Part shown: positions 6,786 through 32,599 of the stretch, piece after piece
Numbering within the stretch: position 1 is the first letter of the stretch
Layout of the letters: every line of letters begins with the position of its first letter
Source of the DNA: Hirudinaria manillensis
Taxonomy: Eukaryota > Annelida > Clitellata > Hirudinida > Hirudinidae
Assembly (NCBI GenBank): GCA_034509925.1
Contig: CM067535.1
Coordinates: forward strand, 2,980,501-3,044,500
Length of the DNA: 64,000 nucleotides
Direction: 5' to 3'
Notes under the pieces: generated by a model
What the model saw: only the letters and a program-made list of their open reading frames with translations
Database searches by the model: none
What the model was told of the DNA's origin: nothing
Program-made: the position numbers and the translations under genes

Positions 6786-6800
6786 TATATATATATATAT

Positions 6801-6871
<71 letters not shown>
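6786..6871. repeat. (AT)n microsatellite
   Basis: A run of AT dinucleotides of about 85 bp, interrupted once near 6803. In the intact paralogous intron (about 16180-16205) the same place reads CAACAATTATATGCAAAG, so the tract looks like an expansion at, or next to, the LINE junction. Confidence 0.95.
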
Positions 6872-6872
<1 letters not shown>

Positions 6873-6884
6873 CAAATACAACCT

Positions 6885-7010: not shown

Positions 7011-7039
7011 TGTTACCAGAATTTGTAATATAAGAATAT

Positions 7040-7307: not shown

Positions 7308-7449
7308 ATATTAATGGGAAAAGCAACGTTTGTACAAATTTGCTCAATAGTGTTTTAAATAACTAGAATATCATTTATTATTAAGTGATAGTAGCAATAA
7401 AATTGATTGAATTGTATTTGTTAAACCAAAATAACGATTATCGGCACTT

Positions 7450-9401: not shown

Positions 9402-12400
9402 TCAAACAACCCTTACTAAATGAGACTTATACAATTTCTTAAACAACAGAAACAATAACTCAAAAGGACATGAATGAAAACAAGTTAATTCCCTAACTGA
9501 ATCTGGAATTGAAGTATATAATCTGGGACCATAACACTGTATAGAAAATAATTTCAAAGTAGATTTAGCAAAGGTAGGACTGTATTCGTGATTGTTACGT
9601 AAGAAATAAGAAGGATTGTTATAGGTATTGCTTGTTATGAAAAAATCTGAAAATATTTTAGGAATAGAATTGAAGTGATAGGCAAACATAAAAAGGGCAG
9701 TTTGGAAGTCATGAATTTGGGTTACACTTAGTAGATTATTGTTTGTAAAGGCAGAGACAGTTGATGATAGAGGCGGCAGCAGGAAAATGACACGCACAAT
9801 CCGTTTTTGTAATAATGATAACTGATGTAAGTGTGTCTTGTAAATAGAAGCCCATATGATATTACAGTAAGTTAGGTAGGGATAGACAAGTGAAAAATAT
9901 AATGAAAGTGCTATTTTTGTGTTGATAAAAGGCCGTATCCTTGATATTATTCCAATATTTCTGGAGATGCGATTTTGTAAATAAGATATATGGTTTAGCC
10001 AAGAAAGGTGTTCATCTATTGTGATCCCTAAATATCTAATACTTGTGACTCTATTTAGGGAAAACTTATCTATGTAGAGAGAGGAGTTACATGCAATGAC
10101 CTTTCTGGAAGAGTGAAAAACCATAAAATTTGATTTATAAACATTGATAGATAAGCAATTACTCGCAAACCAATTTTTCAAAAAAGTTAATTCATTATTG
10201 AATAAAGTAATAAGACTATTTATGTTTTTCCCTAATGCATAAATAACAATATCATCAGCATATATTAATACTTTGAAAAGATCAGAAGAACATTGAAAAT
10301 CATTAATATAAATAAGAAATAAAAGGGGACCCAGTATAGAACCTTGAGGAACACCATAATCAATAAGAACATCAGAAGAACACACACCATTAAACATAAC
10401 CCTTTGACTTCTGCCACACAAATAATTTTTAAACCAACACAAAACGACACCTCTGACACCATACAATTCAAGCTTACGAAGCAATATTTGATGATTAACA
10501 GTATCAAAAGCCTTTTGTAAATCAAGAAACAAAGCCAATACAACATCACCATCATCAAAAGCATTGTAAACATCAGTTTGAAGCAACAATAGAGGCATAT
10601 AAGTTGAATGATTCTTTCTGAAACCAAATTGAGAATCATTAAGTAGGTTAAATTTATCAAAGTAATCATATAGTCTGGAATGTACAATTTTTTCTAAAAA
10701 TTTGGAAAAGTATGGTAAGATAGATATGGGCCTGTAGTTTTCAACCTTGTCCTGCTCACCTGATTTGAAGAGAGGTATAACTTTAGCAGATTTAAGTTCT
10801 TTTGGGATGAGACCAGTACGGAAGGAGGAATTGAAAATAGAAGATAAAGGATCTGCTACTAGTGATATAAATTCATGTGCTATGCAAGGGTCTATGTCAT
10901 CGACACCACAACTATGGGATTTGTTGAGGGCACTGGAAAATTTGATGATCTCGAAAGGACTGGTTGGTGTGAGACTCATGGACTGTAATTGGGAAAATCC
11001 ACTCAGCATATCCGAGATGTTCCTGTCTGTTGTGGGAATAGTGCTGGCAATGTTATTTCCAATACCAGAGAAATAGCGATTGAATTGGCTAGCAGTTTCA
11101 TGTGGAGTAAGCAAATCACCATTGTCATTCACAAAGAAACCAGAGTTATTTCTGGTACTGGTCTGACATCCCATCAAAGATTTAATGATATCCCAGGTTC
11201 TGTGCATATTGGATTTATGTTTTATAAAGAGTTTATCATAATATGCCTTTTTAGTAGCTAATTTGGATTTCCTAAAAGCATTTCTGAAATTAACGAAGGC
11301 CAGTTTATTTTGGTCTGTGGGGTATTGAAGGAAAGTTCTATATAATTTATTTTTTGTATTGGAAGACTTCAGCAGGGATGCATTCATCCAAGGTTGTTTG
11401 AAATTTCTGATTGGCCTATGTTGGTCAGGCACTAGGGGAAAAGCTTCATTGTATAGAGTTAAGTAAATAGAAATAAATTCTTTGTAAGCCGAACAGGGAT
11501 CATCATTTATGCAATGATTTGATACACAAGACCAGTCACATAATGTAAGTGCATTTTGAAATTTATTTTTGGAATGGGTGTTAATCTGTCTATATTGTCT
11601 AAGCTTTGTATTTGCTCGATCACATTTTATAGGAATCTGTAGAAATATAGGAAAGTGATCTGAAATATCTACTATCAGGATTTTGGATAAGCAATTATGG
11701 AGAGGAAAATTTGTCAGGATATTGTCAATTGTAGTTTGAGAGGTAGGAGTAATTCTGGTAGGTTTAGTAAAAACAGGTAACAAAGAGCAGGATGCAACAT
11801 TATTATAGAACTGAGATGATGATTTATGAGAAGAAGCTGTTAGTAGATCAACATTAAAATCCCCAAATATGAAAATAAGTCTATTAGCAAAATAATTTAA
11901 GAAACTGAAAAACTCCAAATTAAATTGATTCATATTACAATCTGGATGTCTATATACAACTCCAACATAAATATCCACAGATTTACGTTGAACAACCTTT
12001 AAAAATAAAATCTCGAAAGAGGTAACAGAAATATTAAGTGTTTCTAATTCAACAACTTTAAACAAAATATTATCAGAAACAAAAAATCCAACACCTCCTC
12101 CCCTATCTACATCAGCACATTTAGAAATAAAATTATAACCTGCAATAGAAACAGAGCCCTCGTTATTTTCATTTAGCCAAGTTTCTGTTAGTGCAACTAT
12201 ACTGGCCTCGCATTGTTCTATGAGAAGCTGTATGTCATGCATTTTATGTATGATACTGCGGCAATTTAAATGAAGGAATGTAAATTTATCTTCAGTCCTT
12301 GGTAGGGGAGAGGGTGATGTGTAGATATTGTCACATAAAAGAGATAAGTCAAATAAATTATCAGGTGAGAAATCATAATCGAAATTTTCTTCACTACAAA

Positions 12401-12536
12401 TTGTATGGTAGCCTGGTTTTGAGTACTCCGGATTGCTATGAGTAAATGCCGTGGGGTTGGGGCTGGGCAAAGTCTCTAAATTCTGATGCTCTAGTGTTGT
12501 TCCATCCACTGGTCTGAGAAAACTTGAATTGGGCAA
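9402..12536 (-). CDS. LINE ORF2: APE endonuclease and reverse transcriptase
   Basis: About 1044 codons, uninterrupted. The endonuclease (residues about 85-310) shows FLHLNCRSI, ALTETWLNE, YRHPD, FGDFNVDLL and the SDHFP motif with the catalytic His/Asp. The reverse transcriptase (about 510-780) shows KVIPLFKSG, YRPISILPYFSKFLEK, GFRKNHST, LDLQKAFDTVNH, GVPQGSILGPLLFLIYIND and the catalytic IYADDIVIY. A C-terminal tail follows, with LLQKRIVRVIF. No RNase H or zinc knuckle is visible. The frame opens only after a TAG near 12556 and contains no ATG before the endonuclease. The first potential initiation triplet is TTG, three bases after the ORF1 stop, so ORF2 is probably made by reinitiation or readthrough. 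Confidence 0.93.
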   Translation of the reverse strand: MPNSSFLRPVDGTTLEHQNLETLPSPNPTAFTHSNPEYSKPGYHTICSEENFDYDFSPDNLFDLSLLCDNIYTSPSPLPRTEDKFTFLHLNCRSIIHKMHDIQLLIEQCEASIVALTETWLNENNEGSVSIAGYNFISKCADVDRGGGVGFFVSDNILFKVVELETLNISVTSFEILFLKVVQRKSVDIYVGVVYRHPDCNMNQFNLEFFSFLNYFANRLIFIFGDFNVDLLTASSHKSSSQFYNNVASCSLLPVFTKPTRITPTSQTTIDNILTNFPLHNCLSKILIVDISDHFPIFLQIPIKCDRANTKLRQYRQINTHSKNKFQNALTLCDWSCVSNHCINDDPCSAYKEFISIYLTLYNEAFPLVPDQHRPIRNFKQPWMNASLLKSSNTKNKLYRTFLQYPTDQNKLAFVNFRNAFRKSKLATKKAYYDKLFIKHKSNMHRTWDIIKSLMGCQTSTRNNSGFFVNDNGDLLTPHETASQFNRYFSGIGNNIASTIPTTDRNISDMLSGFSQLQSMSLTPTSPFEIIKFSSALNKSHSCGVDDIDPCIAHEFISLVADPLSSIFNSSFRTGLIPKELKSAKVIPLFKSGEQDKVENYRPISILPYFSKFLEKIVHSRLYDYFDKFNLLNDSQFGFRKNHSTYMPLLLLQTDVYNAFDDGDVVLALFLDLQKAFDTVNHQILLRKLELYGVRGVVLCWFKNYLCGRSQRVMFNGVCSSDVLIDYGVPQGSILGPLLFLIYINDFQCSSDLFKVLIYADDIVIYALGKNINSLITLFNNELTFLKNWFASNCLSINVYKSNFMVFHSSRKVIACNSSLYIDKFSLNRVTSIRYLGITIDEHLSWLNHISYLQNRISRNIGIISRIRPFINTKIALSLYFSLVYPYLTYCNIIWASIYKTHLHQLSLLQKRIVRVIFLLPPLSSTVSAFTNNNLLSVTQIHDFQTALFMFAYHFNSIPKIFSDFFITSNTYNNPSYFLRNNHEYSPTFAKSTLKLFSIQCYGPRLYTSIPDSVRELTCFHSCPFELLFLLFKKLYKSHLVRVV

Positions 12537-12538
12537 AT

Positions 12539-13507
12539 CTACAAATTTTGCCTTCTATATGCGACAACGTGGAAGTTTCCAGGCTCCCCTCTTATTCTGA
12601 CAATCCATTTACTGCTATCACCTTTTGAATCAATTTCACCTTTTTTGTTCATCAGTAGTCTCTTGCATTCCTCACGGTCTTCCTTGCATAGGTCCTGGCA
12701 CAGGATTATTTTGTTGAAAGCTTCAAGCTTCTTGAGTTTATAACAATTTTCCAGTACCAGGTTCCTTTGGAATTGGTTTTGAAATCTGACAAGTATTGGT
12801 CTAGGTCTTTGAATTAATTCTGTTCTTCTTCCCATCCTGAAGATTTCGATGACTTCCTTCTCCATATCCACAGTGGTGATCTCCTTCAGAAGCCTCAGGA
12901 TGTTTTCTTTATCCTTTAGTTTGGAGTTGTTCTCATTCTCTGGGACATTGTAAGCAACTATGTTATTTTTCCTTCGTGTTCTCTCAGTATTGAGCTCAAG
13001 GTTTGTCTTAGTATCAACCACAGACTTTTTGACATCAGTCACCATTACTTCTACTTTGTCTTTAAATAAACTTGACCAATCCTTTGTAGCTTGTTGGTTT
13101 TCTTCTATTTTTTTAATGGAGCTTTGGATTAGATAAGTTTCAGTTGCATTTTCCTTTAGCATTACTTCAATTTCAGTCATTTTACTGCACATTTGTTTCA
13201 AATCATCCAGTTTATTTCTCAGTTCAGCCATCTCTACTTTATATACATCCAGTTCAGTTTGCCTCAATTCTTTCTCTTGCAGCATCTGTTTGATTTCACG
13301 AATTTCAATCAAGGCTTCCTTATCAACTTTGACTTTCAGAATGTCTTTTATTTCTTTTACTTCGGTACTCAACTCGTCAACATGTTCTTCAATTTTACAA
13401 CAATTTAATAGCTTTTTCATCACTTCAGCATTGTCTTTTTCACACCTATCGCACAGGTGCAGTCCTAATTTTGACCCGGTACCCCGGTGTCTTAAACCTT
13501 CCGCCAT
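12539..13507 (-). CDS. LINE ORF1: coiled-coil nucleic-acid-binding protein
   Basis: 322 codons with a true ATG. The N-terminus has HLCDRCEKD, which may bind metal. Residues about 30-175 form long heptad-rich helices (coiled coil). From about 185 onward there is an RRM-like core of the ORF1p type: NNIVAYNVPENE, EIFRMGRR, RPRPILVRFQN and ILCQDLCKEDREECKRLL. The C-terminal end has WIVRIRGEPG. Such proteins bind element RNA and act as chaperones in the ribonucleoprotein. The gene ends immediately upstream of ORF2 with almost no spacer. It is intact, which fits a recently active element. Confidence 0.88.
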   Translation of the reverse strand: MAEGLRHRGTGSKLGLHLCDRCEKDNAEVMKKLLNCCKIEEHVDELSTEVKEIKDILKVKVDKEALIEIREIKQMLQEKELRQTELDVYKVEMAELRNKLDDLKQMCSKMTEIEVMLKENATETYLIQSSIKKIEENQQATKDWSSLFKDKVEVMVTDVKKSVVDTKTNLELNTERTRRKNNIVAYNVPENENNSKLKDKENILRLLKEITTVDMEKEVIEIFRMGRRTELIQRPRPILVRFQNQFQRNLVLENCYKLKKLEAFNKIILCQDLCKEDREECKRLLMNKKGEIDSKGDSSKWIVRIRGEPGNFHVVAYRRQNL

Positions 13508-15975: not shown

Positions 15976-18900
15976 TCAATTGATATTAAAATAACCTTTA
16001 TAAATGAAGTCCAAATATGAATCCACTTTTGTGAAAAAGCTCAATGTGCAAGGCAAACCTGATGAATCTTGAGCACCAGATGTTGTTATACCAATTAATG
16101 TCCATATTCTACGATCATCTTTGCAAACGTAAGGGCCACCGCTATCTCCCTAACATCAAATAATTATTCAATTGTAACAACAATTATATGCAAAGATTAC
16201 AGGTTCAAATACAACCGTGCAAATATTTATTCCATGAAAAGTGGGAGAGGAGCCACCACAAAATGTCTCAGGCGATATGAAGTCCAAATAAGCGTCAGGA
16301 GGTTTGGATCCCAGATTAGACAATTCCCTTAAACAGTTGTAGTCAGTAAGCAGATTTAATCGTCCTTCTTGCAAATATTTCGGTCTAGATTTATCTGCAA
16401 ATTGTAAAACTTGATTTTGTTTTCTACCTATTTTGGAACATCTAAATTCTACCGATTTATTATTTACTAGCTTGCCCAGCCACGCGTTGCTGTGGCTCAT
16501 TCCGATTTATTTTAAAGGAAAGAAATTTAGCACACATTTTCTAGTATTTTGATTTTTACTATTTACACGATCCTTGAGGGTTACGATATTTTATGTTTTT
16601 TCGTTCTCTATATAAATGTAGACATTATCAGTATTGGAGATTGCGAAAAATAAACATATCTTCACTTTTTATAGGTCTTGTCAAGAGCATTTCTTCTAGT
16701 ACTTATTGCTCATTAATGTTTTACTGCAAGCCGCGTACCGTACAAAGCTTTTGTTGGTTGAAATTTCGCAATATGGCTCGCCGACTTTCAGTTGCGATAT
16801 CTGCGGTGGAATCCCTGGCAGATCAATTGAAGTAAACAATTCTGTTGGATATATACCGCTTCATCTGCTTCCATAACAGTGTTGATGGACTTAAAAGTGA
16901 CTACCTCTCTTTGAATGTCGGAATGATTAATATTGTTGGATCCCTGGATCCCGATAATTGAAGAATAATTAAAATTATATTGCTGATTAATTAATTTAGT
17001 AATTAATTAAATTTAAGGGCAATATAATTTTGTATTTTTAATTACTATTCAGACTCTTTGGTTATGAACCTCGACAAATAGATTTATCTCGGAAAGGAGA
17101 GCGAGAGTTAGAGAAACAGCAGATTCCAATTCTTAGACATTTGAGCATTGTACATCTGACAACTTTCAATAAACCTGACCTTCTATATTTAGTTTGAGGA
17201 CTCCGGGTTATTACATTGGTGTCAGGAGTGGGATTTAGAGTTAAAGGGATCCAAGAGTAACTAAGGTAGAAGCTTGTTTAGTTGAAAAGTAAAGGATGCC
17301 GCGGAAAACACAGCGGTTCCGTGTCAGGATGTCTTGCTGCTTTCGGGTGAAAACTCTACCGAGAAGAGTCCTGATGGTTCTTTTGACGAGAGCAAAGTGA
17401 TGCTTCCATCTTGCGAGGAACAAGAAGAGGAACTCTGCAAAAAGGTTACCAACGAAGAACAAATCATGTCCGTTGTTCCAGGTACAGTTTCTGGCAGCAT
17501 TGGAATGGAGTCATTAGAAGACACATCCGACCACAGTGCGTGCGTGTCTCCAGAAACGCTGTGCGTGATGGCGGACTCAGAGGACTCGCCGTTGGTGCCC
17601 ATAGAGTCACCAGATCAGGTCGAGATGTCAGCAGGGCCCAGAGAGCTCACGGAGGTGTTAGTGAAGTAAGTGGAGCTTTCGGAAGAGCCCGTGAATTTAC
17701 CGGGAGAGTCTGTGAAGTTATTATTACCGCCCGAGGAGTTACCAGTGAAGCACACGAAGTTGATGGTGGAACAAGTAGAGTCTACAGAACAGCCCATGGA
17801 TTTACCAGCAGAGCCTGTGGAGTTCTTAGTGCAGCCCGAGGAGTTACTGAAGAAGCACATAGAGTTACCAGTGGAACACACGGTGTTAGTCCTGGAACAA
17901 ATGAAGTCTTCGGAGAGGCCATGGATTTACCAGCGGATGTTTCGGTTCGATTGGAGATAACAGAAGGGAGTGCTCGGGATTTCGGGAGAGCGCCTAGCAT
18001 GGAAAGTGGAGCAGGTAATCCTGTAGAGAGTTTGAGATCTGGCGACATGGTGGAGCAGGAGGGCGTACATGGAAGTGGCGACGTTCAGCGACTGAAAGTT
18101 GCGGGGCGCAGGAGCCAAAGGGAGGAAACAGAAATCTCAGAAGAGGACCAAGCAAAAGGATCTGAGATTCGCAGCCATGAGATTGTTAGAAGACAATCGG
18201 ATCCTATTCCTAGAGTAAAAATGAAAATGGGAATAGATGTCTGTTCGGGACGAACAGATTTAAGGAGGGGGCAGCGTTGGATCCCTGGATCTAGATAATT
18301 GAAGAATAATTAAAATTATATTGCTGATTAATTAATTTAGTAATTAATTAAATTTAGGGGCTTTATAATTAATTAAATAATTAATTACTATTCAGACTAT
18401 TTGGTTATGAACCTCGACAAATAGATTTATCTCGGAAAGGAGAGCGAGAGTTAGAGAAACAGCAGATTCCAATTCTTAGACATTTGTGCATTGTACATCT
18501 TCCAAGCCATCTGACAACTTTCAATAAAACTGACCTTCTATAATTAGTTTGAGGACCCCGGGTTATTACAATATTTTTCAGTTCATAGGCGTATTCTTGG
18601 ACTCGAAGAATAACTCGTTCACTCAGCCAATCATGATTCTAATGTTTTGATTATTTGGAAGTACTTTGTCAACCAATTCTTTTGTCGTCACGAAATTACA
18701 GAAATTATGTGGCAACGAAATTCGTCCTGAAGTCAGATAAACCATTTCGCGTTTGGGTTACTGCTAAGTTGCCTATATCTTCTGTTGATCTTCAGTATAA
18801 ATAATATCCATCATATCCTGTAAATGTGGTTAGAGAACAATTATGATGTTCTGTTTTATCCTTTGTCTATCAACATTGTTTAAAATCTTAGATTTCATGT

Positions 18901-20736
18901 TAATAAATGTTAATTTTGTTGAACCCTAAACTTTTCCTACACCAGTTTTAACTTTGTTTTGAAACAAATTACTCCATTGCTTTGTTTCTTCCCTATTTTC
19001 TTCCAGCTTTTGGACGGAGAGTGTGTTTAATTCCTTCAGGTTTTGTCGCAGAACATTTATTGGCTTTCCTTGATCTCTGATGGTTTGGCACAGGATATAT
19101 GTGTTATAATAGTTGTCTTTTGTATTCTTTGAATTCCTTTCAACAAATTTATTGGGACCACTTTCGCACAGGTGAAACCTAAGAAGTTCGGCCTTAATTC
19201 TGATTTCGCAATTGGCCTTGGCATAAAGACTTTCGCAAACTTTATTTTTATATTTACAAATTCACAATGCTTAGTTTGATCAGCATTGATAGTTTCTAAA
19301 GGAAACAAACCAAAGATGAATTTAATATCGTTTAATGATATTTATATGAAACCTATGTAAAAACACTCATCTATTCGATTTCTACGGTGTGCCAAAATTT
19401 CATAGCAATTGGTTAAGAACTTTCAAAGAACATTAATTTGATGCAAACACACATTGCATTTTTATTTATATAGAAGATTATAAAGAAATGAAATAAAGAT
19501 ATTAAAAATTATTTCGACGGATTAATTTAGACTAATTTCGAACTGCTATATGTAATTCACAAATAAACGTTTCAAGAGGAAGCAAAAAAGGAATTTCGAA
19601 CTGCTTAGACCATTGTCATTCAATTGATACAGAATCAGATTATTTTATTTTAAATTATATTAAATTAATGACATTAATTATTTTAATTAATTTTAGTTTT
19701 AAAATGTGTTTTTAAATTTAATTTATATTTATAAGGAAATGAAATAAAAAAATTAAATGTTCGCCTTTTTTCACGTCCATGGCAAGATGGCAGGATTTTA
19801 GAAAAAGCGTATTCTTACATGATATAGTTGTGGCTTATATATGAAACCTACACAAAAACACTCCTCTAATCGAACATTATGATGTTTCAAAATTTCAAAG
19901 CAATTGGTTAAATACTTTCCGAGAACATTTACATGATACAAGCACACATTGCATTTTTATTTATGTAGAAGATAGATTTCATGCATTCAAATATATATTA
20001 CAAACATATAAAATTACAGATTGCTACCAAAATATTTGCTAGAACTGACAGTTATAGAAATTCTATGCAAAACATGTCTATACATACTTCTATCAATGTG
20101 ACCAAATCCAGTCGCTAAGCAATATCGATAAGACATAAACATTTCCGTGTCTAATTTTCCTCTAGGCAAACAAACTGGCCTCACATGTTTTGAATAGATT
20201 ATCGGTGACTTAACTCTGAGTAATGCTATGTCGTGATAAGAATCAGGGTCTTCTTTATCATATCTTGGATGAGTAATGAGATGGGAAGCAGGAAGTATTT
20301 TTCCACTGGGATCATTTCGAATAATTGTATCAATCATAACGTGAACTGATCTATAATTACCATTCCTTGAAGGATATCAATATATGGAACAAATTCAACC
20401 ACATATCAACGTACTTTGAAAAAATTCTAATTGCATTAATTGCAATAAGTTCAACAGAATAACTGTATTTAACAATTTTACTTTTGGAATGATTATATTT
20501 TAGTTACGTTGAACTCTATAATCAAGAAAAACAAAGCGTATATTTATACCCAAAGCAATGAGCCGAAGTAAGTATCCAATTTTCTTTTATAATACTTGCT
20601 CCGCATGCATATTGTCCGTCGATGATTATTTGTGCGTGCCATGGCCAGGCACCGTATTTTGATTCAAACCCATTGATAATATAAGGTTCAAAATCGGCGT
20701 CAGGTGATCCACGTGTACCGCAAATGCTTTCAGTTT
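15976..20736 (-). CDS. Gene B protease domain (four exons)
   Basis: Exons 20550-20736, 20088-20365, 16216-16394 and 15976-16149 form a complete S1 fold. The histidine lies in TSAHC, the aspartate in YHDIALL and the serine in GDSGGP. All five expected cysteine pairs can be placed, including the link between the SICG cysteine and RPVCLPRG that ties the light chain to the protease. Two features are odd. The zymogen junction reads EPY-IING, with tyrosine where arginine or lysine is usual. The position equivalent to residue 189 is asparagine (FCGG ... INICT-GDSGGP). The C-terminus (FFTKVDSYLDFIYKG) is the usual final helix. The aspartate and serine exons are separated by 3.7 kb containing an LTR element, but only by 188 bp in gene D. 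Confidence 0.88.
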
Positions 20737-23700
20737 CTGTGGGTCACGCATATGAAGCTAATGATTTGAACATTCCACAAATATAAATTGAATAAATTTA
20801 GGTTCAATATTATTAGATTAAAATAAGTGAATTAAAAACGCATTGTAAAATGAATTTACCAAAAAAGTAACCATTTACTTACCGTTTTTCTCAGTAAGCT
20901 CGCAATGAAGTTTTACCACTAGGCCAGATGGACATTGTGAACTTAAAGGCATTAAATATTAAATTTAAAAAAAAGTTATTCTGATATTATTGAAAATCTC
21001 TGATAAAATGTTAACATAGTTTTCAGATATCTCATAAATGGTAAATCTTCTCTTTCAATATTCCTTTTAGTTAGAAATTTTCGCATTCTATTTGATGTTG
21101 GCTTTAAGGTAGTGTTTGTATATCGTCTGTTCATACCAATAAATAGAACGTGAAGAAAGTTTTAAATCTGAATATTAAATGTTATTAACTATTCTTTTTA
21201 ACGCTCCAAAATATTAATATGAAGTCATATCGTTGCAAAAAAAAAAACATAATCTGCAATAGACAAAAGAATAATAAATGTTCCCAGATTTTTGAAATAT
21301 CAACAGGACAAACAATTTTATAACCAAATTGCTTAATATTGTTTTAATAACTCGAATATCATTTAAAATTAAATGATAGATGATGTAAAATTGATTGGAT
21401 TGTATATTTAAAATAAAAACTTTCGGCACCTGCCAAGTTTAGCACAAACATCAAAACTCTCTCTTGGTTTCCAACCTCGAGAGCAAATGTAGTAATCTGA
21501 CTCTCCCTTATATATTGCTTTGAGAAGGTTAGTATTTGATTCAAATTGAACTAAATTAGGAAAACGTGTTAGTAAATGATATGGCATTTGTTTTTTAACA
21601 TTTTATTTTAACATAAAAATATGATATAACTTCCCTACAACAGCCGTGTTCATCAGAATAGTCTCGACAGTTCACAACGCCATCACATCTACTTGTATAA
21701 TCGACGCAGTAGTTACGTCTTAGGCATTTAAACTGACCTTCTCCACATTTAATTCCTATAAACGATTGTATTTCGATAATATTAATATTGAAAACAAATC
21801 GCGAAACGAAATTAAATATTTATTAATTCTAAATGCCAATGCTTATAATATTACTGCATGACTGTGCTTCATCGTCTCCTTGTGGACAATCTTCTATCCC
21901 ATCGCATACAAAGTCCTTGTGTATGCAACGGTCTTCATAACATTTAAATTCATAATCACTACAATTCCCCACTCGGGACGCGTTGACACCTGTAAAATTA
22001 CAGTATTATCTAAACAAAATTACCATTTGCATTACAAATGAATTTCATAATTATTATGTTTATTCAGAATAATGATTAACCTTTCGGTTCGTCTTTTGAG
22101 TAAACTTGCACATCACATAGCACCATCCATCTTGGCCTTGCCCCTGTAAACTTTCTAATCGTGACCGAACTTCCGAGATATGGCCTTTTACAAGTAATGT
22201 TTATTGCTCCTCCTAAAAGCAATTTTGATTTTAAATATTTAACCAGTCTTTGTTCCAACACATACAGGACAAACTCACTTTCGCCAACTTTGTCATGAGG
22301 ATATTCGGTATTACCGCATGTGTATGTTTCATGGCGATCTTCCTCGTTTGAAACATATACGTACACGTGTTTTTTAGCAAATTGACCTAATAATAATGTT
22401 TTAATAATAACAATAATTATTAACGAGTCTTAATATAATTTATAAGTTTGTCACAATAATTCCCTCATGAGTCGAAGTCACTTGGTAGGTGTAATAAGCC
22501 TGAGAGGACATCATAGTACCTGTTGAATTTGCCAAAAAATATATAGTCACTTTAGTGACATAATAACTATCATCAAGAATCACTCTCCACCAGGCAAACT
22601 CATTGCTAAAAGATCTGATTATGGTACAAGTGTCCAAATTTCCGTCTACTGAATATTGAGATGTATTTTGGAAAAATACTCCACTTTGTTCGGTTGGTCT
22701 ATTAAAAGCCAAATTAACTAAAAGCAATTTAATAAATTTTCAAATTAAACTCTAAGTAACTCAGTTTTCAAAATGTATTGCAAACCTGTATCTTTATCGG
22801 CGTTCAAACGAACTTCACATAAAACGAGCATATTCATTATCGGTCCCCTGATTCTTTCAATCATAAGAAATTTGCCATAGTAAGTATTTTTGCAAGCTAC
22901 CTCATAATATTCCACTAAAATGAAATATTAATATGAAATGTTTACAAAATAGGATTTGTTCACATTAGAATGGAAATTCAAGTTCTTTTCACCATTCGAA
23001 AATACTGTTGGATCCCTGACATTAATTATTTAATTAAGTTTAGTTAATATTCAGAATCTTTTATCTCGAAGTCGTATCTAGCGATTCCAGTCATTAGGCA
23101 GTTCCGATCCGGACAGCAATTGCAATAGACCAAATCGTCCAGCCGTATTTGCCATTTGTTAATTCCAATAAAGATATCCTTACGTTAATTAATTCATCAG
23201 TACCCGGGTTACAACATTGGTGTCAGGAGTGGGATTTAACGTCGTAAAGGGATATCGATTCACTAGAGGTAAAGACAGCGAGTTTTAACAACAGAAATGG
23301 GACTTAAGATACTGGACGAGTTGCGCGTTCCCGATTTAAAACGGGAACTAAGGAATCGAGGCCTGGATGCAAATGGCCTAAAAGCCGAACTACAAGAACG
23401 GCTCGAGAAATGGCTTTTGGAAAATTGTTTTGGATAGTGTAATAATATTGTAAGAATTTATTATTACTTAAAGTTTATTATTATAATATTCAGTATCTTT
23501 TTGAGGTTAGTGCAGTGGCACATTCTTGGTAATAAAATAGCTTAGTATCTCCAATTCCCAAAGTACTCCTTAATTATATAGCAAGTAATTCAAGATACAA
23601 CAAAAATAATCATGATCCATCAGAGTATGAATTTGAGGATCCAAAAAAGAAAGAAGATTCTGAAGCCCTTCGGTCAGATATGAAATCCGATATGATTTGC

Positions 23701-26700
23701 GGCATGGATGCTTTGCGGTCAGATATGAAATGCGACATTGATGCTTTGCGGTCGGATATGAAATCCGATATAGCCATCTTCCAAGTAGCCATGGATGTTT
23801 TACGGGAGCAGGTAAAAACTGATGCAGCCAAATTCCAGACATCCATGGATGTTCTACGGGAAGAGGTAAAAACTGACGTAGCCAACCTCAGATCATCCAA
23901 GGAGATGGCCGACCTTAGAAAGGTTAAAGCAGAATTAGATGCACTAAAAGAAGAACAGAAGAAGGAAATAGAGAAGTTTAAGAAATACAATGAATCAAAA
24001 AGACATCAGTTTCAAAGCTTTTGCAAACAATGCTTCACTGAATAGCCTATTCAGAAATAACAGAAGCAATGGAAAGAAGATTTGGGAATGGCCACATGCT
24101 GGAAGTACATAAAAACGAATTAAAAAACCGTACGCAAAAACAGGGCCACTCCAAGAATTAGAGGCTGATGTCAGAAGGCTCGCATACCTACCACCCAGGA
24201 CAGTCAACAGATTTCATTGAAAACATTGTAACTGACGCCTTCGTTTATGGGATAAGGGATGCGGAAACCAAAATGGCACTAAAAATTCATGGAAAAAAGG
24301 CCAGCCATGAAGCATTGGCGTTTGCAATCTCCATTGAAGCGGCAAGAGCCTCAATCCAAAAAAGCTTGAATGTAAAGAAAATTGAAGTTCAGGAAGACAA
24401 AGACAAGGAGAAAGATAAAGATAAAGACAGAGAAATGATTAAAAAAATAGTCCGACAAGTCAATGACCTCAGCAAGCCCCAAAGAAACTTAAGATTCCAG
24501 GTAGTAGATAGAAGACCAAGGTGCTTCAGGCCCTAACAAGCCTGGCCATTTAGCCCGAGCATGTAGAACGACCTTCTCCCAAAAACAGCAGCACTGGATA
24601 GAACCCTATAAATCAGAAAAACCTGAAGCTACTAATTTTAGGGGGCAAAGATCGTTTCAGCAAACTCGAAATGCCCCACTCGTCTTTCACGTTACAGCAT
24701 TAGGAAAAGGATCATCACTAGAAGTTAAAGGGAAAATTGGAGGGAAAGAATATAATCTTGTAATAGACACAGGGGCATCTACATCTATTGTCCAACCAAA
24801 GTTGGAAAGAAACAGTAAATTAACGACCAACAACTACAAGCTAAAAACAGCCACCGGAGAATTAGTGCCAGTTCAAGGAACTAAAACTATTACGGTGGAT
24901 TTAGGAGGCAAGTCATTCGAACAGGAATTTATGATAGCCAATATAACAGATGAATGTATACTGGGATTGGATTTCATGCGACGCTATGGAATTTCCATTG
25001 ACATGAAGGGCGGCACCCTTCAACAAGGAACGATGGAGATTCCTCTACACTACGGAGGTACAGAAGTCAAAGAAACGTTTGTAAAGGTATTACAAAACGA
25101 GACCATCCCGGCACAGTCGAAAAGTTTATTAGTCAAGAGCATTAGTCAAGCTAAACACCGGCAGAGTTCCACTGAGGGTAATGAATCTATCTGACCAGGA
25201 ACAACAGATCAAAGCAGGAACACCTATCGCACTTTGCAGGAACGTGGAACGCATATTAACATTAGATGGAAGTGGAAATAAGCATATCAAAAGGGATACC
25301 ATGTCTAAACCATTAATGGACAATCTCCTGAAAGATTTAGACAAAACTCTACAAAAAGAAGATTATCAACAAGCGGAAAAGCTGCTTAGCGAATTTCAGG
25401 AAATAATGGCTGAACAAGACAGCCCTTTGGGTAGGACTAACCTCGTGCAACATCAAATAAATACGGCCGGTGCTAAACCCATTCGACAAAACCCCCGTCC
25501 ACTTCCTTTAGCTACAATAGCAAACTCCAAGGAAATGATAAAAGAAATGCGAGACCAAGGGGTTATTGAACCGTCAAAGAGCCCCTGGAGTTCACCGGTG
25601 GTGAAGAAAGATGGATCACTTCGTTTTTGTGTCGACTATAGAAAGCTGAACGAAATGACACTTAAGGACAGCTACCCCTTACCTAGAATCGATGATACTT
25701 TAGACACTCTCTCGGGATCAAAAATTTTTTCCACATTAGATCTCAAAAGTGGTTACTGGCAAGTGGAGTTACATCCTGAAGATAAAGAAAAAACGGCCTT
25801 CTCGACAGGTGAAGGATTATGGCAATTCACTGACATGCCGTTCGGGCTATGCAATGCCCCCGCGACGTTTGAAAGATTAATGGAACATATACTGTGGGGA
25901 CTCAATTGGGAAGTATATTTGGATGACATAATTGTTGTCGAAAAAACATTTGGAGAACATTTAGACAACCTCCGAGAAGTATTTAGTAGTATTAGAGAGG
26001 CAGGCATGAAACTGAGTCCAAAGAAATGCTCACTCTTTAAAAAAGAAGTCAACTATTGCGTGACCAGGAGAGAATTATTAGCAGCAGTAGAATCCATGAA
26101 ACATTTCCATAAATATCTTTTGGGCCAGCCGTTTTTGCTAAGAACGGATCACGCCTCTCTGAGGTGGCTGTTAAACTTTAAAAACCCAGAAGGTCAGATG
26201 GCGAGGTGGATTGAAAAACTACAGGGTTTTCAGTTCAATATCGAACACAGGAAAGGTCAAATACATAACAACGCTGATGCGCTATCACGACGTCCTTGTC
26301 AACTTAACTGCAGACACTGCAACAATGCAGAGAAAAAACAGGAAACCGAAGAATGTCGACAAATTCGTATCACGGCTCCCGAACCCTGGACGGAAAGCGG
26401 GTTACGAGATCTACAATTAAGAGACGAAGCACTTGTACCCATACTACAGTGGATGGAGGCCGGGGTGAAACCAGATTGGCAACAGATAGCGGAGCACGGA
26501 GAAGTCCTATTGGGTACAGTGGGATTCATTGAGAATTAGTAATGGACTCCTACATAGGAAGTGGGAAACAGAGGTTGGCACCGACTATCACCTTCAAATA
26601 GTACTTCCGAGATCTTGCGTCACTGAGATGTTTCAAGAATTCCATAACGGAACCTCAGGGAGTGAATAAAACCATCAGGAAGGTGAGGGAGAGGTTTAAC

Positions 26701-28031
26701 TGGTTGCACTACAAACAAGACGTTGAGGAGTGGTGTAGAAATTGCAATAATTGCGCAACCAGTAAAGGTCCTCAAAAGAAGACTAAAGGTCTAATGCAAC
26801 CTTATAATGTGGGAGTACCTTTTGAAAGAATAGATTTATATATTGCCGGACCATTCCCTGCATCAAAGAAGGGAAATCGGGACATATTAGTGATCAGCGA
26901 TTACTTCACCAAATGGACTGAAGCGTTTGCACTGCCAAATCAGGAGGCGGAAAATGTAGCTGATGCTCTCGTAAATTATTGGATTAGTCGATTCGGGGTG
27001 CCATTAGAGTTACATTCGGACCAAGGAAGGAATTTCGAGTCGAAAATATTGTTGTAACCCGGGGTCTGATGAATTAATTAACGTAAGGATATCTTTATTG
27101 GATTTAACTAATGGCAAATACGGCTGGACGATTAATTAATTAAGTTTAGTTAATATTCAGAATCTTTTATTTCGAAATCGTATCTAGTGATTCGAGTCAT
27201 TAGTTCAGCTCCGATCGGGACAAGCAATCAACCAAATCATCCAGCCGTATTTGCCATTAGTTAAATCCAATGAAGATATCCTTACGTTAATTAATTCATC
27301 AGACCCCGGGTTACGACAATACTATTTTCTAAGATGTATATTTATCTAATTTTTTGGATATTATGGCATATTTAAATTTTCTATAAGCAATGATTTGAAT
27401 TATTTAGCTTATAATGCAGCAAATGATTCCGGTTTCGATTTTGAAACGGGCGAATAATTTTATTAAAATTATTCAATTAAAAATAGTTAAATTACATATG
27501 TTTGGAATGAAATATTTGTGTTATGCAATGAGGCCATATTGAATGTACTCACCAGAAACTTTATTTGGCTTTATCATTGTGGCACATAAGTGTTCTTTCA
27601 AGTTCAATTTATTGCCTGAAACATAGACTTTCAAATTTCGGATTAAATCCCCATCTGGAAATAAGCAGTCTAAACAGCAAATGCACAATTAAAAAGGAAA
27701 TTTTTTATAACGAAATGCGTTATAATTGTTAGATAGCAAATATATCTTCAAAATTATTAACGGACAAAATTTCATATATATTATTTTGCTGCATCTTAAA
27801 TCTATTTTTATTAATTTAGTTAATTTTACAAACACATCAAATTTGCGACATGTAAGTTAATATCCTTTATGTGATAAAATCTGTCGAGTTCCAAAAGCCA
27901 CCAAGGATTTTTGCCAGGTTCTAATTCTATTTTAGTAATCGAACAGGTATCTGTGTTTCCATCGATCGCCAAACTAGAATCATGGTCCGTGTAAGTGAGA
28001 CTTTGAGATGTTTTTGAGTTAGTCAAAGGGA
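15976..28031 (-). CDS. Gene B: F-type lectin / LDLa / SRCR / S1 serine protease, 14 exons
   Basis: Proposed exons on the minus strand, from 5' to 3': 27834-28031, 27553-27669, 22786-22914, 22520-22717, 22081-22386, 21855-21989, 21639-21755, 21430-21550, 21016-21126, 20883-20941, 20550-20736, 20088-20365, 16216-16394, 15976-16149. All boundaries are AG...GT and every phase fits; with one base from an upstream exon the total is 770 codons including the stop. No exon contains a stop. The order is two F-type lectin domains, two LDLa modules, one SRCR domain and a chymotrypsin-fold protease. No ATG or signal peptide lies directly upstream (28032-28310); a first exon may lie beyond the retroelements at 28.3-34.8 kb, or may be lost. 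The predicted product is a secreted or membrane-attached recognition protease. Two LTR elements lie in its introns. Confidence 0.85.
16460..16930. repeat. Repeat block with AGCCAC/GTGGCT palindrome, in an intron of gene B
   Basis: This block is found again at 50580-51052 with few changes. Near its edge it carries AGCCACGCGTTGCTGTGGCT (about 16478-16497), a 6-bp stem with an 8-base loop. An open frame at 16593-16835 is also open in the second copy (50773-50958), with an in-frame 9-base difference, but I recognise no domain. I do not call it a gene. Confidence 0.5.
17217..17234 (+). promoter_or_regulatory. Primer binding site, tRNA-Leu
   Basis: TGGTGTCAGGAGTGGGAT lies one base after the 5' LTR. 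Its complement, ATCCCACTCCTGACACCA, is the 3' end of animal tRNA-Leu (CAG/CAA type, from memory of the tRNA family) including CCA. The same site is found in the gypsy elements at 23218-23235 and 63195-63212. Confidence 0.85.
17280..18298 (+). pseudogene. Gag-like ORF remnant of element i
   Basis: Three overlapping frames (17334-17669, 17670-17960 and 17411-18298) together cover what is one frame of about 340 codons in element iii. The shared stretches include VSGSIGMESLE, HSACVSPETLCVMAD, a run of degenerate LPVE-type acidic repeats, and RSGDMVEQE. Frameshifts and a TAA separate them, and the SAP-like N-terminus is missing. It is broken; the function of this protein in the element is unknown. 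Confidence 0.75.
18241..18274 (+). other. Hairpin and polypurine tract before the 3' LTR
   Basis: CTGTTCG-GGA-CGAACAG (18241-18257) is a perfect 7-bp stem with a 3-base loop, followed by the purine tract AAGGAGGGGGCAG that ends at the LTR. The same arrangement is found at 28631-28664, 36094-36127, 56044-56077 and 63431-63464 (reverse). It is used in different reading frames in the two LTR families, so it is conserved at the nucleotide level. Confidence 0.75.
18575..19975. repeat. Intron block of gene B duplicated at 51057-52470; contains a LINE ORF1 relic
   Basis: No host exon is seen. The minus strand at about 18930-19160 shows KLEENREETKQWSNLF and a nearby ILCQTIRDQ, similar to segments of the LINE ORF1 at 12539-13507 (EENQQATKDWSSLFKDK, ILCQDLCKED) but in a different order and frame. 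I read it as an old, rearranged LINE ORF1 fragment. The same relic lies at about 51420-51650 in the duplicate. Confidence 0.5.
20883..21550 (-). CDS. Gene B SRCR domain (three exons)
   Basis: Exons 21430-21550, 21016-21126 and 20883-20941. The first ends with YYICSRGW, then DVCAKLG, the conserved SRCR pattern of a cysteine, a tryptophan and CxxLG. The second starts RYTNTTLKP. The third carries CPSGLVVKLHC, the typical end of the short SRCR domains that precede the protease in TMPRSS-type enzymes. The order LDLa-SRCR-protease is the same as in that vertebrate family. The middle exon is lysine/arginine-rich and unusual. Exon lengths (121, 111, 59) are the same in gene C. Confidence 0.75.
21639..21989 (-). 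CDS. Gene B LDLa modules 1 and 2
   Basis: Each module is one phase 1-1 exon (21855-21989 and 21639-21755), the arrangement expected for shuffled LDLa domains. Module 1 shows NCSDYEFKC, RCIHKDFVCDG and DCPQGDDE with six cysteines. Module 2 shows QFKCLRRNYC, RCDG and DYSDEHGC with six cysteines plus one extra. The acidic calcium-binding residues near the end of each are present. Module 2 has a nonsense codon in copies A and C but is intact here. Confidence 0.9.
22081..22717 (-). CDS. Gene B F-type lectin domain 2
   Basis: Two exons (22520-22717 and 22081-22386). The first carries NLAFNRPTEQS, YSVDGNLDTC and FAWWRVILDDSYYVTKVTIYF, the signature of the fucolectin/tachylectin-4/pentraxin (FTP) fold. 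The second carries VYVYVSNEE, CGNTEYP, then INITCKRPYLGSSVTIRKF and MVLCDVQVYS, the end of the fold. The canonical fucose motif RxD followed by a basic residue, normally just after VTI, is absent, as is the adjacent cysteine pair. Ligand binding therefore cannot be assumed. Confidence 0.88.
22786..28031 (-). CDS. Gene B F-type lectin domain 1 (three exons, split by a gypsy element)
   Basis: Exons 27834-28031 (SLAIDGNTDTCSI, NPWWLLELDRFYHIKDINLHV), 27553-27669 (CLFPDGDLIRNLKVYVSG, HLCATM) and 22786-22914 (CKNTYYGKFLMIERI, MLVLCEVRLN). Together they form one FTP-fold domain. A 4.3-kb gypsy insertion (23006-27318) occupies the intron between the second and third exons. The RxD fucose motif is missing here too. 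The next in-frame bases upstream of 28031 reach a stop without an ATG. Confidence 0.82.
23218..23235 (+). promoter_or_regulatory. Primer binding site, tRNA-Leu
   Basis: The same 18-base site as at 17217-17234, one base after the LTR end. Sharing it links this family to the short non-autonomous LTR elements. Confidence 0.85.
23297..24536 (+). pseudogene. Gypsy gag, broken
   Basis: It begins MGLKILDELRV, a SAP-like DNA-binding motif (LKRELRNRGLDANGLKAEL), and is cut after about 43 codons by a 177-bp insertion. It resumes at 23603 with a coiled-coil region of repeated LRSDMK and VLREQVKTD units. A deletion of about 190 bp near 24000-24045 and a base loss near 24148 shift the frame. The zinc knuckle near 24520-24570 is destroyed by a local change after the first cysteine-phenylalanine. 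Confidence 0.85.
23426..23602 (+). repeat. Small solo LTR of another family nested in gag
   Basis: The intact gag at 62980-63010 reads without this insert. The insert starts TGTTTTGG and ends TACAACA, contains AATAAAA, and is flanked by AAAAT on both sides (23421-23425 and 23603-23607). TG...CA ends with a 5-bp duplication fit a short solo LTR of a different family from the 4-bp families in this window. Orientation is assumed from the AATAAA. Confidence 0.65.
24690..26539 (+). pseudogene. Gypsy protease and reverse transcriptase, with internal deletion
   Basis: The protease active site DTGAS is at about 24768. RT blocks follow in order: RFCVDYRKLNEMT, FSTLDLKSGYWQV, FGLCNAPATFERLM and YLDDIIVV. 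After KKEVNY the frame jumps directly to CVTRRELL, so about 430 bp holding the RT thumb and the first part of RNase H with its DTDAS motif is missing compared with 57700-58130. The frame also shifts between the protease and RT parts near 25150 and stops at 26539. It cannot make an active polymerase. Confidence 0.9.
26540..27049 (+). pseudogene. Gypsy integrase, truncated
   Basis: The minus-10-kb sister copy (56055-59100) shows the full integrase. Here the zinc-binding domain lost part of its HH half (FHNGTSG joined to VNKT by a deletion near 26658), and the core runs to HSDQGRNFESK, where a reversed LTR begins. The glutamate of the DDE triad and the C-terminal module are gone. Confidence 0.88.
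27050..27318. repeat. Head-to-head LTR remnants forming an inverted repeat
   Basis: 27050-27133 is the end of the gypsy LTR in reverse orientation, preceded by AATAT. It is joined directly to 27134-27318, the rest of the element's own forward 3' LTR. About 80 bp at the two ends are reverse complements. It looks like a nested reverse insertion followed by a deletion that removed the end of pol, the purine tract and the start of the 3' LTR. Confidence 0.75.
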
Positions 28032-29132: not shown

Positions 29133-32100
29133 TCAACAACTGGAGAGAATGTGTTTTTTAAGAAGGGATTTAAACAGAGAGGAACTGTTTAAAGAAGTAA
29201 GGGATAATGGCAGAGAAGAGAACAAAAATGGACCTTTACAACATATGGATAATTTTTTGAAGGTGGTACGGGAAAATTCAGATCTAAATTGATTGGATGA
29301 TCTAAGATTGTAAGAGTGGATATCTGAGGATTTGGAAAGCATATTACTAAAGGCAGAAGGCAGCAAGTTATGTTCATAATTATACGTAAAGAGGCAAGTT
29401 TGGAATTTATTGATCTGATAAATATTCAAAAAACCATTTGAAATGAAGAAGTCCTTTGTGTGAGCACGTGGATGGAGGCGAAACATAATCCTGATTATTC
29501 TTTTTTGAAGAGTGAGTAGATGGGTGAGTTTAGAGGGATAGCTAGATGCCCAAGCTATATTACAATAGATGAGATAGGGATAGATTAATGAATAGTACAG
29601 CATAGTAAGAATTTTTCTATCAACAAATGAACTGATTTTTGATATGACTCCAATGTTTTTTGAAATTTTGGTGGCAACATAATTGATGTGGAAAGACCAG
29701 TTTAATTTCTCATCGATAATAATGCCGAGGAATTTGGTGGACGTAACATGTTTAATCTGTTCTATCCTTGTTCTTTGAACAAAACAGCATAAAGTTTTTT
29801 CAATATTTAAAGATAACTTATTGGCGCGAAACCATATGTCAACATTAGTTAACTCCCTATTAATGGTAATAATCAATTCATTAAGATTTTTGCCAGAGGC
29901 AAATACATTAGTATTGTAATATCCCGGGGTCCTCAAACTAATTATAGAAGGTCAGGTTTATTGAAAGTTGTCAGATGGCTTGGAAGATGTACAATGCTCG
30001 AATGTCTAAGTCTTGAAATCTGCTGTTTCTCTAACTCTCGCTCTGCTTTCCGAGATAAATCCATTTGACGAGGTACATAACCAAAGAGTCTGAATAGTAC
30101 CAATTAATTAATTATAAAATTATATTAAATTTAATTAATTACTAAATTAATTAATCGGCAATATAATTTTAATTTTTCTTCAATTTACTGGATCTAGGGA
30201 TCCAACAGTATCATCCGCAAATAACAAAAATGAAAGCAATGATGAGTAATTGTGTAGGTCGTTAATATAAATGATAAATAGTGAAAAAATGAGAAAAATG
30301 AGTGAAAAATGAAAAAGGACCAAGAATAGAACCTTGGGGAACACCACAAGTTACGTCACTGAACAACGATCTAGACCCATTAAATTCTGTCAATTGTTTA
30401 CGACCCGCCAAATAACTTGCAAACCATTTGAAAACGCAGCCACGCAAGCCATAATAATAGAGTTTTGACAAAAGTATCTCATGATTTACGGTGTCAAATG
30501 CTTTAGATAGGTCAAGAAACACACCAATGGTGAACTCACCACGGTCTAGAGCGTCAGCGATTCTGGAATGAAGTAACAACAAAGGCATATATGTAGAGTG
30601 ATTTTTTCGAAATCCGAATTGTTTGTTGTTAAGGAGACTGAACTTTGATAAGAAGATTTCCACTCGACGATATACTGCCTTTTCAAAAATTTTAGAAAAA
30701 TATGGCAGGATTGAGATAGGTCTGTAATTGCAGATCTTGTTCAAATCACCAGATTTATGCAATGGAATCACTTTGGCCAATTCTAAGTCATCAGGAACAT
30801 TCCCCGTTAACAAAGAACAATTAATTAGAGAGCTGAGGGTGTCCGAGATCAATGAGATGAATTCACCAGCAATGCAAGGATCAACACCATCAAGACCACA
30901 ACTATGGGAGGTCTTCAATTCTTTGAGTATTTGAATGATCTCATCTGCCGAAACAGGGAAAAAAACATTGTGGGGGTGGAAGATCTCGTGAGGAATTTAT
31001 AGAAGGACTTGGATGAAGGAATGATTTTCTTTGCCAAGTTTGGTCCAAGATCGGAAAAATATTTGTTGAATTTTTCGGCTATTGCAATTGGAGAGTTTAT
31101 TTCGCACCCGTCGACCGAGTAAAATATGTCGGGAGCTACAGCTGGTTTGCTCCCTCTGGACAAAATACTTTTTATGATATTCCAAGTACCCTTTGGATTT
31201 CCTTGATGACTCTGGAATCTTGATGAGAAGTGCTGACGAATTATGGCCTGCTTGATAGTTTTGAATTTGTTTCTGTAATTTGAAAATTTGATTTTATTTT
31301 CTGGAGTTGGATTCTTTAGATATGTCTTGTACAGATTTCTTTTTACTTTACAAGATTTTAGGAGAGCAGGGGTCATCCATTCCTGTCTTTTCATTCCCGA
31401 TCGGGAGCCGACGATTTCCAAGGGAAAACAATGATTATATAGATTTTGATATTTCGATATAAAAAGTTGATAGGCGTGAGATATATTTTGGGATTCACAC
31501 TCTATGGTCACATCGGACCAATCCTCCGCAGTCAAGCTTTCTTTAAATTTCAGTTTAGCTTGTTTATTCTGTCTTCTACGCAGTATTGGGGGCCCCACTA
31601 TTTTTACAATCTCATGCAGTTTAATATTGATGTAGAGAGGGAGGTGATCCGAAATGTCATCAATAACTATTTTGGGAAAGCATTTGCTGAGGGAGATATT
31701 TGTGAAGATATTGTCTATGAGAGTGGCAGATGAGGGTCCAATTCTTGTGGATTTGAGGAATGCAGGCATCATGAGAAAAGAGTGGAGGATGTTTAAAAAT
31801 TCATTGGTGGGTTGACTGCTTTCAATTGCTAATAGGTTAATGTTAAAGTCGCCCATTATTATTGCCTTTCTGTTGTCTTTGATTGTGTAAGAAAGGAATT
31901 CTGAAAATTCTTTGTTAAAAAATTTTAAGCTGTTTCTAGGTGGGCGATAGATAATGGCTACAATGATGTTCTCTCCTCTGCGTTGGCTGATTGAAATTAG
32001 AAGATATTCAAAGCTTTCAAATTTCCAGTAACTCGTGTCAATGAGATTAAATTTAATGTTGTCTTGGAGAAAAAAGCCAACGCCTCCTCCTAGGCTCCGA

Positions 32101-32381
32101 TCCCTGTTTTTCGAAACAAATTTGTAACCATTAATAGCAGGTACAGGATCACACTCTTTCAGCCATGTTTCACTGACACCCAGGATCTCTGCATGACAAG
32201 AAGACAACAACAATTCCACTTCCTGGAGTTTATTTGAGATGCTTCTGCAGTTAATATGCATCAAAGAAAAGTCTGATTTACATATTTCGGCCATATCTTT
32301 GGTTGTGACATAATTTGAAACCTCGTAAAACTCCGGCAAGTATGCATCCGGGTCAGATGAAGAAAAATCAAAATCCGCCAT
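29133..32381 (-). pseudogene. LINE ORF2, frameshifted and LTR-disrupted
   Basis: The endonuclease part (30915-32381) shows LMHINCRSI, GVSETWLKE, YRPPR, IMGDFNINLL and SDHLP. The reverse transcriptase starts after a frameshift near 30915 (SHSCGLDGVDP, YRPISILPYFSK, LDLSKAFDTVNH, GVPQGSILGPFS). The catalytic segment LFADDT at about 30208-30228 is split by the solo LTR 29915-30207, and the C-terminal part continues at 29133-29914. A second frame problem lies near 30262-30330. It is inactive. Confidence 0.88.
29915..30207 (-). repeat. Solo LTR inserted in the LINE catalytic motif
   Basis: Minus orientation, TGTAATATCCCGGGG ... GGGATCCAACA, flanked by GTAT at 29911-29914 and 30208-30211. It separates the FADD catalytic residues of ORF2 from the downstream coding part, so it arrived after the LINE. 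Confidence 0.95.
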
Positions 32382-32599
32382 TTTTCATACTTTCTTGGTA
32401 CTTGTTGATGAATCTACAGTCTTTCCAGACAAAGAATGCATTATAAGACTTACTTATATCATCCAAAACTGTTGAAACATAGTCTAAATTGCCGGGGTTA
32501 ATAATGGAGACGAATGAAACTGAAAATAAATCCTCAAAAAAAAAAAACCCCAAGATGAGAGGAAAAGAAAAATAAACCACAGACATCAACCAGATGAGG

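Follow-up and report, generated by a model that had tools for sequence, protein, structure and literature searches.

What does a leech locus encode in which exons for F-type-lectin, LDLa, SRCR and S1 protease domains follow one another, and could the product be a protease that recognises a surface and starts a cascade? We analysed a 64-kb window of the leech genome (C10:2980501-3044500; feature positions given without a contig prefix are window positions), on the minus strand of which a sequence-only reading had joined 14 exons into one gene, here called gene B. That joining stands: exactly 14 exons can be joined between 28031 and 15976, with AG at all 14 acceptors, GT at all 13 donors, consistent phases, no internal stops and a frame open over 768 residues. 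The first of these exons opens at a splice acceptor, so the start was missing from the 14-exon model; what it had overlooked is a signal exon at 35037-34977. With this exon, the spliced model of gene B comprises 15 exons encoding an open protein of 789 residues; all 15 exons are open, every splice site is canonical, and the catalytic residues are present. The exons are as follows, with a slash marking a splice or cleavage point:

34977-35037, minus strand: exon 1, start codon and predicted signal peptide MYSRHIYVIILSIQTVAVLR, with phase-1 donor A/GTAGGT (from peptide similarity and the spliced model)
27834-28031, minus strand: exon 2, F-type-lectin domain 1 part a, FTP1a (exon joining; FTP profile against PDB)
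27553-27669, minus strand: exon 3, F-type-lectin domain 1 part b, FTP1b (exon joining)
22786-22914, minus strand: exon 4, F-type-lectin domain 1 part c, FTP1c, with an LCEV motif (exon joining)
22520-22717, minus strand: exon 5, F-type-lectin domain 2 part a (exon joining; Pfam; FTP profile against PDB)
22081-22386, minus strand: exon 6, F-type-lectin domain 2 part b, FTP2b (exon joining; FTP profile against PDB)
21855-21989, minus strand: exon 7, LDLa domain 1 (exon joining; Pfam)
21639-21755, minus strand: exon 8, LDLa domain 2 (exon joining; Pfam)
21430-21550, minus strand: exon 9, SRCR part a (exon joining; Pfam)
21016-21126, minus strand: exon 10, SRCR part b (exon joining)
20883-20941, minus strand: exon 11, SRCR part c, CPSGLVVKLHC (exon joining; Pfam)
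20550-20736, minus strand: exon 12, S1 part a, with Cys1 (residue 523), activation site EPY/IING (Tyr536) and His57 (residue 577)
20088-20365, minus strand: exon 13, S1 part b, with Asp102 (residue 625) and Cys122 (residue 645)
16216-16394, minus strand: exon 14, S1 part c, with Asn at the Asp189 position (residue 729)
15976-16149, minus strand: exon 15, S1 part d, with GDSGGP containing Ser195 (residue 735) and the stop codon

Exon 1 encodes 20 residues with one short hydrophobic stretch right at the N-terminus, which resembles a signal peptide. Similar peptides were found at 16 places (E ≤0.01) in the 250-kb region that we mapped for exons (C10:2880001-3130000), and ten of the 16 head complete gene copies, all ten of which have the signal exon with its phase-1 donor. 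A read-through start in a neighbouring copy, paralogue C (MKVHHFNGLICFLISV...), was considered as a signal peptide and dropped: several other copies do not retain its start codon and frame, the read-through stretch ends in a splice acceptor, and the better conserved signal exon lies further upstream.

Phase-1 introns between domains are the classical signature of shuffled modules, and in gene B they lie at all five domain boundaries (FTP1/FTP2, FTP2/LDLa1, LDLa1/LDLa2, LDLa2/SRCR and SRCR/S1). The FTP2-LDLa1, LDLa1-LDLa2 and LDLa2-SRCR introns are only 91, 99 and 88 bp long and therefore leave no space for a gene boundary between FTP2 and SRCR. These short phase-1 introns, together with the same order in ten complete copies, uphold the earlier proposal of a single gene whose domains run F-lectin, F-lectin, LDLa, LDLa, SRCR, S1.

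Domain searches identify each of these modules, some of them near threshold. In the joined gene B protein, Pfam calls Trypsin (2.2e-44), LDLa (PF00057; 58.5 bits over two stretches, cut-off 24.1) and F5_F8_type_C_2 in two stretches. The SRCR_2 assignment (PF15494, cut-off 27 bits) is marginal, passing at 28.4 bits on the LDLa2-SRCR part alone and falling below at 25.1 bits in the whole protein. Scanned alone against F5_F8_type_C_2 (cut-off 27.8), FTP2 passes with 29.1 and FTP1 stays below with 24.7. Because this Pfam family is broad, we searched the PDB with a profile built from seven FTP domains of five gene copies, keeping matches at E ≤5. Of eight matches, the best were FBP32 (1.4e-9) and the eel lectin 1k12 (3e-6); ranks 3-6 were fucolectin-related proteins and Sm-hPAF (E 0.0015-0.0038), and the last two scored 0.82 and 1.6. 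The best six of the eight are thus all proteins that we take to be F-type lectins, and "F-lectin" is justified as a domain-family name.

With FBP32 (striped bass; tandem domains) and the single-domain eel lectin, the FTP domains share a common domain family, Cys50 and Cys146 (both present in 20 of 20 domains) and the WW motif. In contrast to these lectins, the FTP pair is fused to a protease and lacks His52 and Arg79 throughout: aligned with the eel lectin and FBP32, all 20 domains have Ile or Val for His52, in a column that is alignment-dependent and that the HMMER alignment puts elsewhere, and all 20 have Ala or Leu for Arg79. The Arg86 position holds Arg in 3 of the 20, otherwise Asp, Val, Gln or Glu. 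The classical fucose-binding motif of F-type lectins, which we take to be His52, Arg79 and Arg86 (eel numbering), is therefore not found in these domains, and since its His and first Arg are absent, fucose binding cannot be assumed.

The C-terminal part has different relatives. Residues 364-760 of the 768-residue model align to enteropeptidase 7wqx (E 1.2e-36), and a ranking of PDB entries by full layout places LRP2 first, enteropeptidase next and then TMPRSS2, in agreement with the proposed layout likeness to TMPRSS proteases. Enteropeptidase and TMPRSS2 share the order LDLa, SRCR_2, S1 with the gene B protein. It differs from them in having no evident transmembrane N-terminus, two F-type-lectin domains added in front, Asn for Asp at position 189, and Tyr for the basic residue before the activation cut. 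With ModSP/HP14 and Factor C it shares the idea of recognition modules preceding an S1 domain. ModSP, Factor C and MASP carry CCP, LCCL, CUB or EGF modules before S1, and neither these four nor C-type lectin are among the eight Pfam families that match the gene B protein (E ≤1). The suggested likeness to ModSP and Factor C thus extends to layout and stops short of the domains themselves, with no CCP, LCCL, EGF or C-type-lectin domain in the protein; and since the source is a leech, from a different phylum, the comparison with arthropod cascades is one of layout only.

In another annelid, Olavius algarvensis, SRCR proteins are described as associated with LDL-receptor, trypsin or C-type-lectin domains (PMC5117596); the passages considered do not name F-type lectin as a partner and list the one fucolectin apart (PMC5117596). 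Protein searches that reached few animals gave three weak matches in one case and one in another, none with the same architecture, which is weak evidence of absence. Nor did we find a literature description of two F-type-lectin domains fused to LDLa-SRCR-S1, and an unnamed database entry is still possible. Within that reach, our searches agree with the earlier remark that this domain order was not known from any described protease. Separately, both LDLa-SRCR-S1 proteases and F-type lectins are familiar, and we rate their fusion, with two F-type-lectin domains, as a new variant of modular recognition proteases; the architecture of the gene B protein itself is well supported.

As judged from its sequence, the S1 domain of gene B is that of an active S1A protease: the triad is intact (His57, Asp102 and Ser195 at residues 577, 625 and 735), and GDSGGP is present. 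In the 250-kb region, 13 of 15 S1d exons have GDSGGP, one has GDGGGP and one GDSGSA, and diverged members at C10:2.80 Mb carry GNSGNG and GDSGNG at this site. The GDGGGP motif, in which Ser195 is replaced by Gly, belongs to a full-length copy (C10:2968733-2976954; L017, L018) that is likely an inactive protease homologue, so some family members may be inactive decoys.

The activation site and the specificity pocket both depart from the tryptic pattern. In place of the Arg or Lys that precedes an IVGG-type N-terminus in tryptic zymogen activation, gene B has Tyr. The same holds for 24 of 25 S1a sequences, comprising 23 of 23 in the clusters and one of two intronless relatives, a count that omits one further pattern match, which has a stop in it and does not represent a protease exon. 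The exception is an intronless gene with KNSGGP, outside the clusters. Residue 189 of gene B, aligned to prostasin, is Asn and not the Asp of trypsin-like specificity. Asn189 recurs in all 15 readable sequences among 17 S1c matches, in three of four diverged S1c matches (the fourth has Ala), and in one of two intronless genes (the other has Gly). Given the Tyr before the cut and Asn189, a trypsin-like enzyme is not expected to activate this zymogen, nor is the enzyme expected to be trypsin-like itself. Gene B also has both Cys1 and Cys122, a pairing established for S1 proteases, and its binding arm should therefore stay disulfide-linked to the protease after cleavage.

Gene B belongs to a large tandem family. 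In a search of the genome (148.43 Mb, 23 contigs), the LDLa-SRCR-S1 part gave at least 138 matches, with 131 at C10:2.53-3.26 Mb, five near C4:10.6 Mb and two at C10:4.01 Mb. The FTP2 search gave 152, and among the matches listed all but one (C10:5.71 Mb) lie in the C10 and C4 clusters. Matches to F5_F8_type_C_2 occur on other contigs too, mostly C11 (49 matches), so the domain is neither tied to proteases in general nor confined to this family. A second concentration of such matches lies at C11:1.72-2.66 Mb (L031-L034).

Within the 250-kb region we identified 32 exon chains, ten of which have the signal exon and all 14 following exons in gene B order; the other 22 are decayed, partial, truncated where the mapped region ends, or diverged beyond the reach of this search. 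Eight of the ten complete copies are open with canonical splice sites and encode 786-822 residues, and these eight are not independent, some being closely related. The remaining two are copy 3115, whose FTP1b acceptor has no AG, and copy 2965, which is broken in SRCRa. Three copies carry an additional short LDLa-like exon. The splice rule picked nearby AG and GT sites that avoid stops, which slightly favours openness; gene B needed no such choice. In 3053p and in six copies that were open elsewhere, a stop that appeared where FTP1a meets FTP1b is removed by using a second acceptor six bases upstream. Before modelling, a surplus partial S1a match was taken out of 3053p and a surplus SRCRa match out of 2965. 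When we substituted 5% of sites at random (substitutions only), the gene B frame stayed open in 1 of 400 simulated copies; with eight of ten complete copies open at median pairwise dS values of 0.15-0.35 by domain, the open frames are not a product of chance.

The window itself holds several relatives of gene B, and paralogues A, C, D and E had escaped the sequence-only reading:

599-1845, minus strand: fragments of an older copy with lectin domains, at the edge of the window
3679-9187, minus strand: paralogue A, decayed, with FTP1, FTP2, LDLa, SRCR and S1c-d pieces containing stops
40234-44650, minus strand: paralogue C, decayed, running from the signal exon to S1b in gene B order, with a stop in LDLa2 and S1c-S1d lost
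48807-50485, minus strand: paralogue D, consisting only of SRCRb-c and a full S1; directly upstream, lectin exons were looked for and not found
52578-53638, minus strand: paralogue E, decayed, comprising SRCRb-c plus S1a and S1b with a stop; over 1358 aligned bases it shares 95.4% identity with gene B

In paralogue C, the end of S1b jumps straight into the 3' flank. Copies E and D (48807-53638) repeat the SRCRb-S1b segment in tandem, a partial duplication such as unequal crossing over could produce.

More distant members retain the layout to different degrees. A diverged gene at C10:2.57 Mb (L036) keeps the order FTP1, FTP2, LDLa, SRCR, S1, its exon matches each being 38-58% identical to the nearest query. 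Members at C10:2.80 Mb and C4:10.65 Mb, of which short stretches were read, show LDLa-SRCR-S1, with FTP2 in one at C10:2.80 Mb. Two intronless relatives (C10:4.014-4.018 Mb) combine three LDLa domains with S1 and show no FTP match, and Pfam calls no SRCR in the one scanned. They form an adjacent pair on the minus strand (501 and 477 residues): the gene at L029:4934-6439 has SSY/IING, GDSGGP and Asn189, and the adjoining gene at L029:2258-3691 has KNSGGP and no Tyr activation site.

Comparison of the copies points to both constraint and exchange. Over the 45 pairs of the ten complete copies, 3115 and 2965 included, median dN/dS was 0.64 for FTP1, 0.39 for FTP2, 0.35 for LDLa, 0.75 for SRCR and 0.54 for S1. 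Pooled over seven C-type copies, leaving out B, 3115 and 2965, codon bootstrap intervals lie below 1 for FTP2 (0.43; 0.28-0.65) and S1 (0.56; 0.44-0.72), which are thus under constraint; those for FTP1 (0.63; 0.39-1.00) and SRCR (0.73; 0.49-1.12) reach 1, so relaxed constraint is possible there. Between copies 2925 and 2907, identity is 98.3% across 5750 bp including introns, a stretch that starts at the signal exon and reaches into LDLa; past it, identity falls to 75-82%. In this pair dS is 0.010 in FTP2 and 0.330 in SRCR. The FTP1 of gene B shares just 48-52% identity with that of the other nine copies, its FTP2 79-94%. The abrupt shift in identity between copies indicates that lectin and protease halves have recombined.

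Mobile elements make up part of the surrounding sequence. A Ty3/gypsy-like element (23000-27060, plus strand) lies inside the 4638-bp FTP1b-FTP1c intron of gene B, before exon 4, and a second occupies 56058-63157. Two non-LTR retrotransposon frames lie on the minus strand, one open over 1050 residues (9405-12554; 33-68% identity to database entries among the matches listed, 120 of 6931) and one in pieces (29133-32384). A repeated element at 16937-18570, found in other places as well (L035:59-770), has ends in common between its occurrences and carries a frame encoding repeats of valine, glutamate and proline. Since the corresponding intron in the E/D region lacks this element, it appears to be an insertion. 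In the 64-kb window, Rfam and tRNA scans found nothing. Searches for the cuticle (PF00379), GH6 (PF01341) and TTR-52 (PF01060) families gave no match either, a result of little weight since their controls matched nowhere.

From these data we infer a possible role for the gene B protein and a possible kind of ligand. We lean, tentatively and a little short of an even chance, toward an intact 15-exon leech gene for a secreted, surface-recognising zymogen that starts a cascade through non-basic cleavage, its two halves re-paired by duplication and recombination. A non-basic activation site is found in some initiators of the ModSP and Factor C type, and the idea of a surface-sensing initiator, which would remain an inference from sequence, gains support because the Tyr activation site is nearly invariant and residue 189 is non-tryptic. 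In this scheme the FTP-LDLa-SRCR arm would bind the surface of microbes, mucosa or host cells, probably by some means other than the classical fucose site, and crowding there would allow family members or a chymotrypsin-like partner to cut after the conserved Tyr. The simplest model would have a chymotrypsin-like enzyme perform this activation; self-cleavage within the family is a guess. The active enzyme might then cut a downstream substrate at a non-basic residue and trigger a local defence or clotting-type cascade, and tandem duplication with recombination of lectin and protease halves could supply new pairings of binder and enzyme.

Alternatively, and with a smaller yet appreciable probability, gene B may encode a salivary or feeding enzyme that the leech releases into its prey. 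There the arm of FTP and LDLa domains would attach to glycoproteins of host cells or plasma, the protease would cleave a substrate of the host, and expansion of the family would follow diet and not immunity. The leech lineage secretes many blood-active proteins, and this genome has hirudin-like and antistasin genes, with a hirudin match above the cut-off, two readable exons whose likeness to hirudin we assume, and 63 antistasin matches; these matches mark the source as a leech. The gene B protein, predicted to be secreted and bearing eight N-glycosylation motifs, would suit such a use. Typical digestive S1 enzymes, however, do not resemble a zymogen that is activated after Tyr and keeps a long binding arm tethered to it, and a term search for words beginning "lectin" drew none from the main text of three leech genome papers, which weighs weakly against a feeding role.

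It is unlikely that gene B specifies a developmental or matrix protease of the TMPRSS, corin or enteropeptidase kind, localised by its FTP pair and perhaps membrane-anchored through the N-terminal hydrophobic stretch. The LDLa-SRCR-S1 order fits that class, and enteropeptidase and then TMPRSS2 are the best full-layout PDB matches after LRP2. But the hydrophobic stretch, short and at the very start, looks like a signal peptide, and conserved developmental genes do not usually sit in large, recombining, partly decayed tandem families such as this one.

Could gene B instead be a dying copy, open by recency and unexpressed, so that only other cluster members matter? Its neighbours A, C and E are decayed, as are copies A and 3071, which hold the FTP1 sequences nearest to its own, and three of its introns contain transposon sequence; with such large, transposon-filled introns the gene could be poorly expressed. 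Against this stand its 15 open exons, canonical splice sites and intact catalytic residues, and we consider the proposal improbable. That two adjacent genes, one for a lectin and one for a protease, were wrongly joined is very improbable: protease copies D and E do lack adjoining lectin exons, but a 91-bp intron of matching phase 1 separates FTP2 from LDLa1, the order recurs in ten complete copies and in the diverged member, whose exon matches are 38-58% identical, and the signal exon stands before FTP1 in complete copies, with none found between FTP2 and LDLa.

Returning to the secreted, cascade-starting zymogen, we can extend it to a more speculative and rather doubtful form, in which the family would be a leech counterpart of lectin-complement initiation carried out by single polypeptides, with varied F-lectin/SRCR recognition halves shuffled among catalytic halves, and with surface-triggered, Tyr-directed cross-activation among members, independent of trypsin-like cleavage. 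Modular proteases that recognise surfaces and start cascades are known from arthropods and vertebrates, and a comparable annelid family would show how exon shuffling gives rise to such systems. A concrete prediction of specificity follows from Asn189 together with the nearly invariant Tyr at the activation site, and the identity break between copies displays binding and catalytic halves in the course of recombining. Leech proteins of this family are also of interest as possible secreted effectors.
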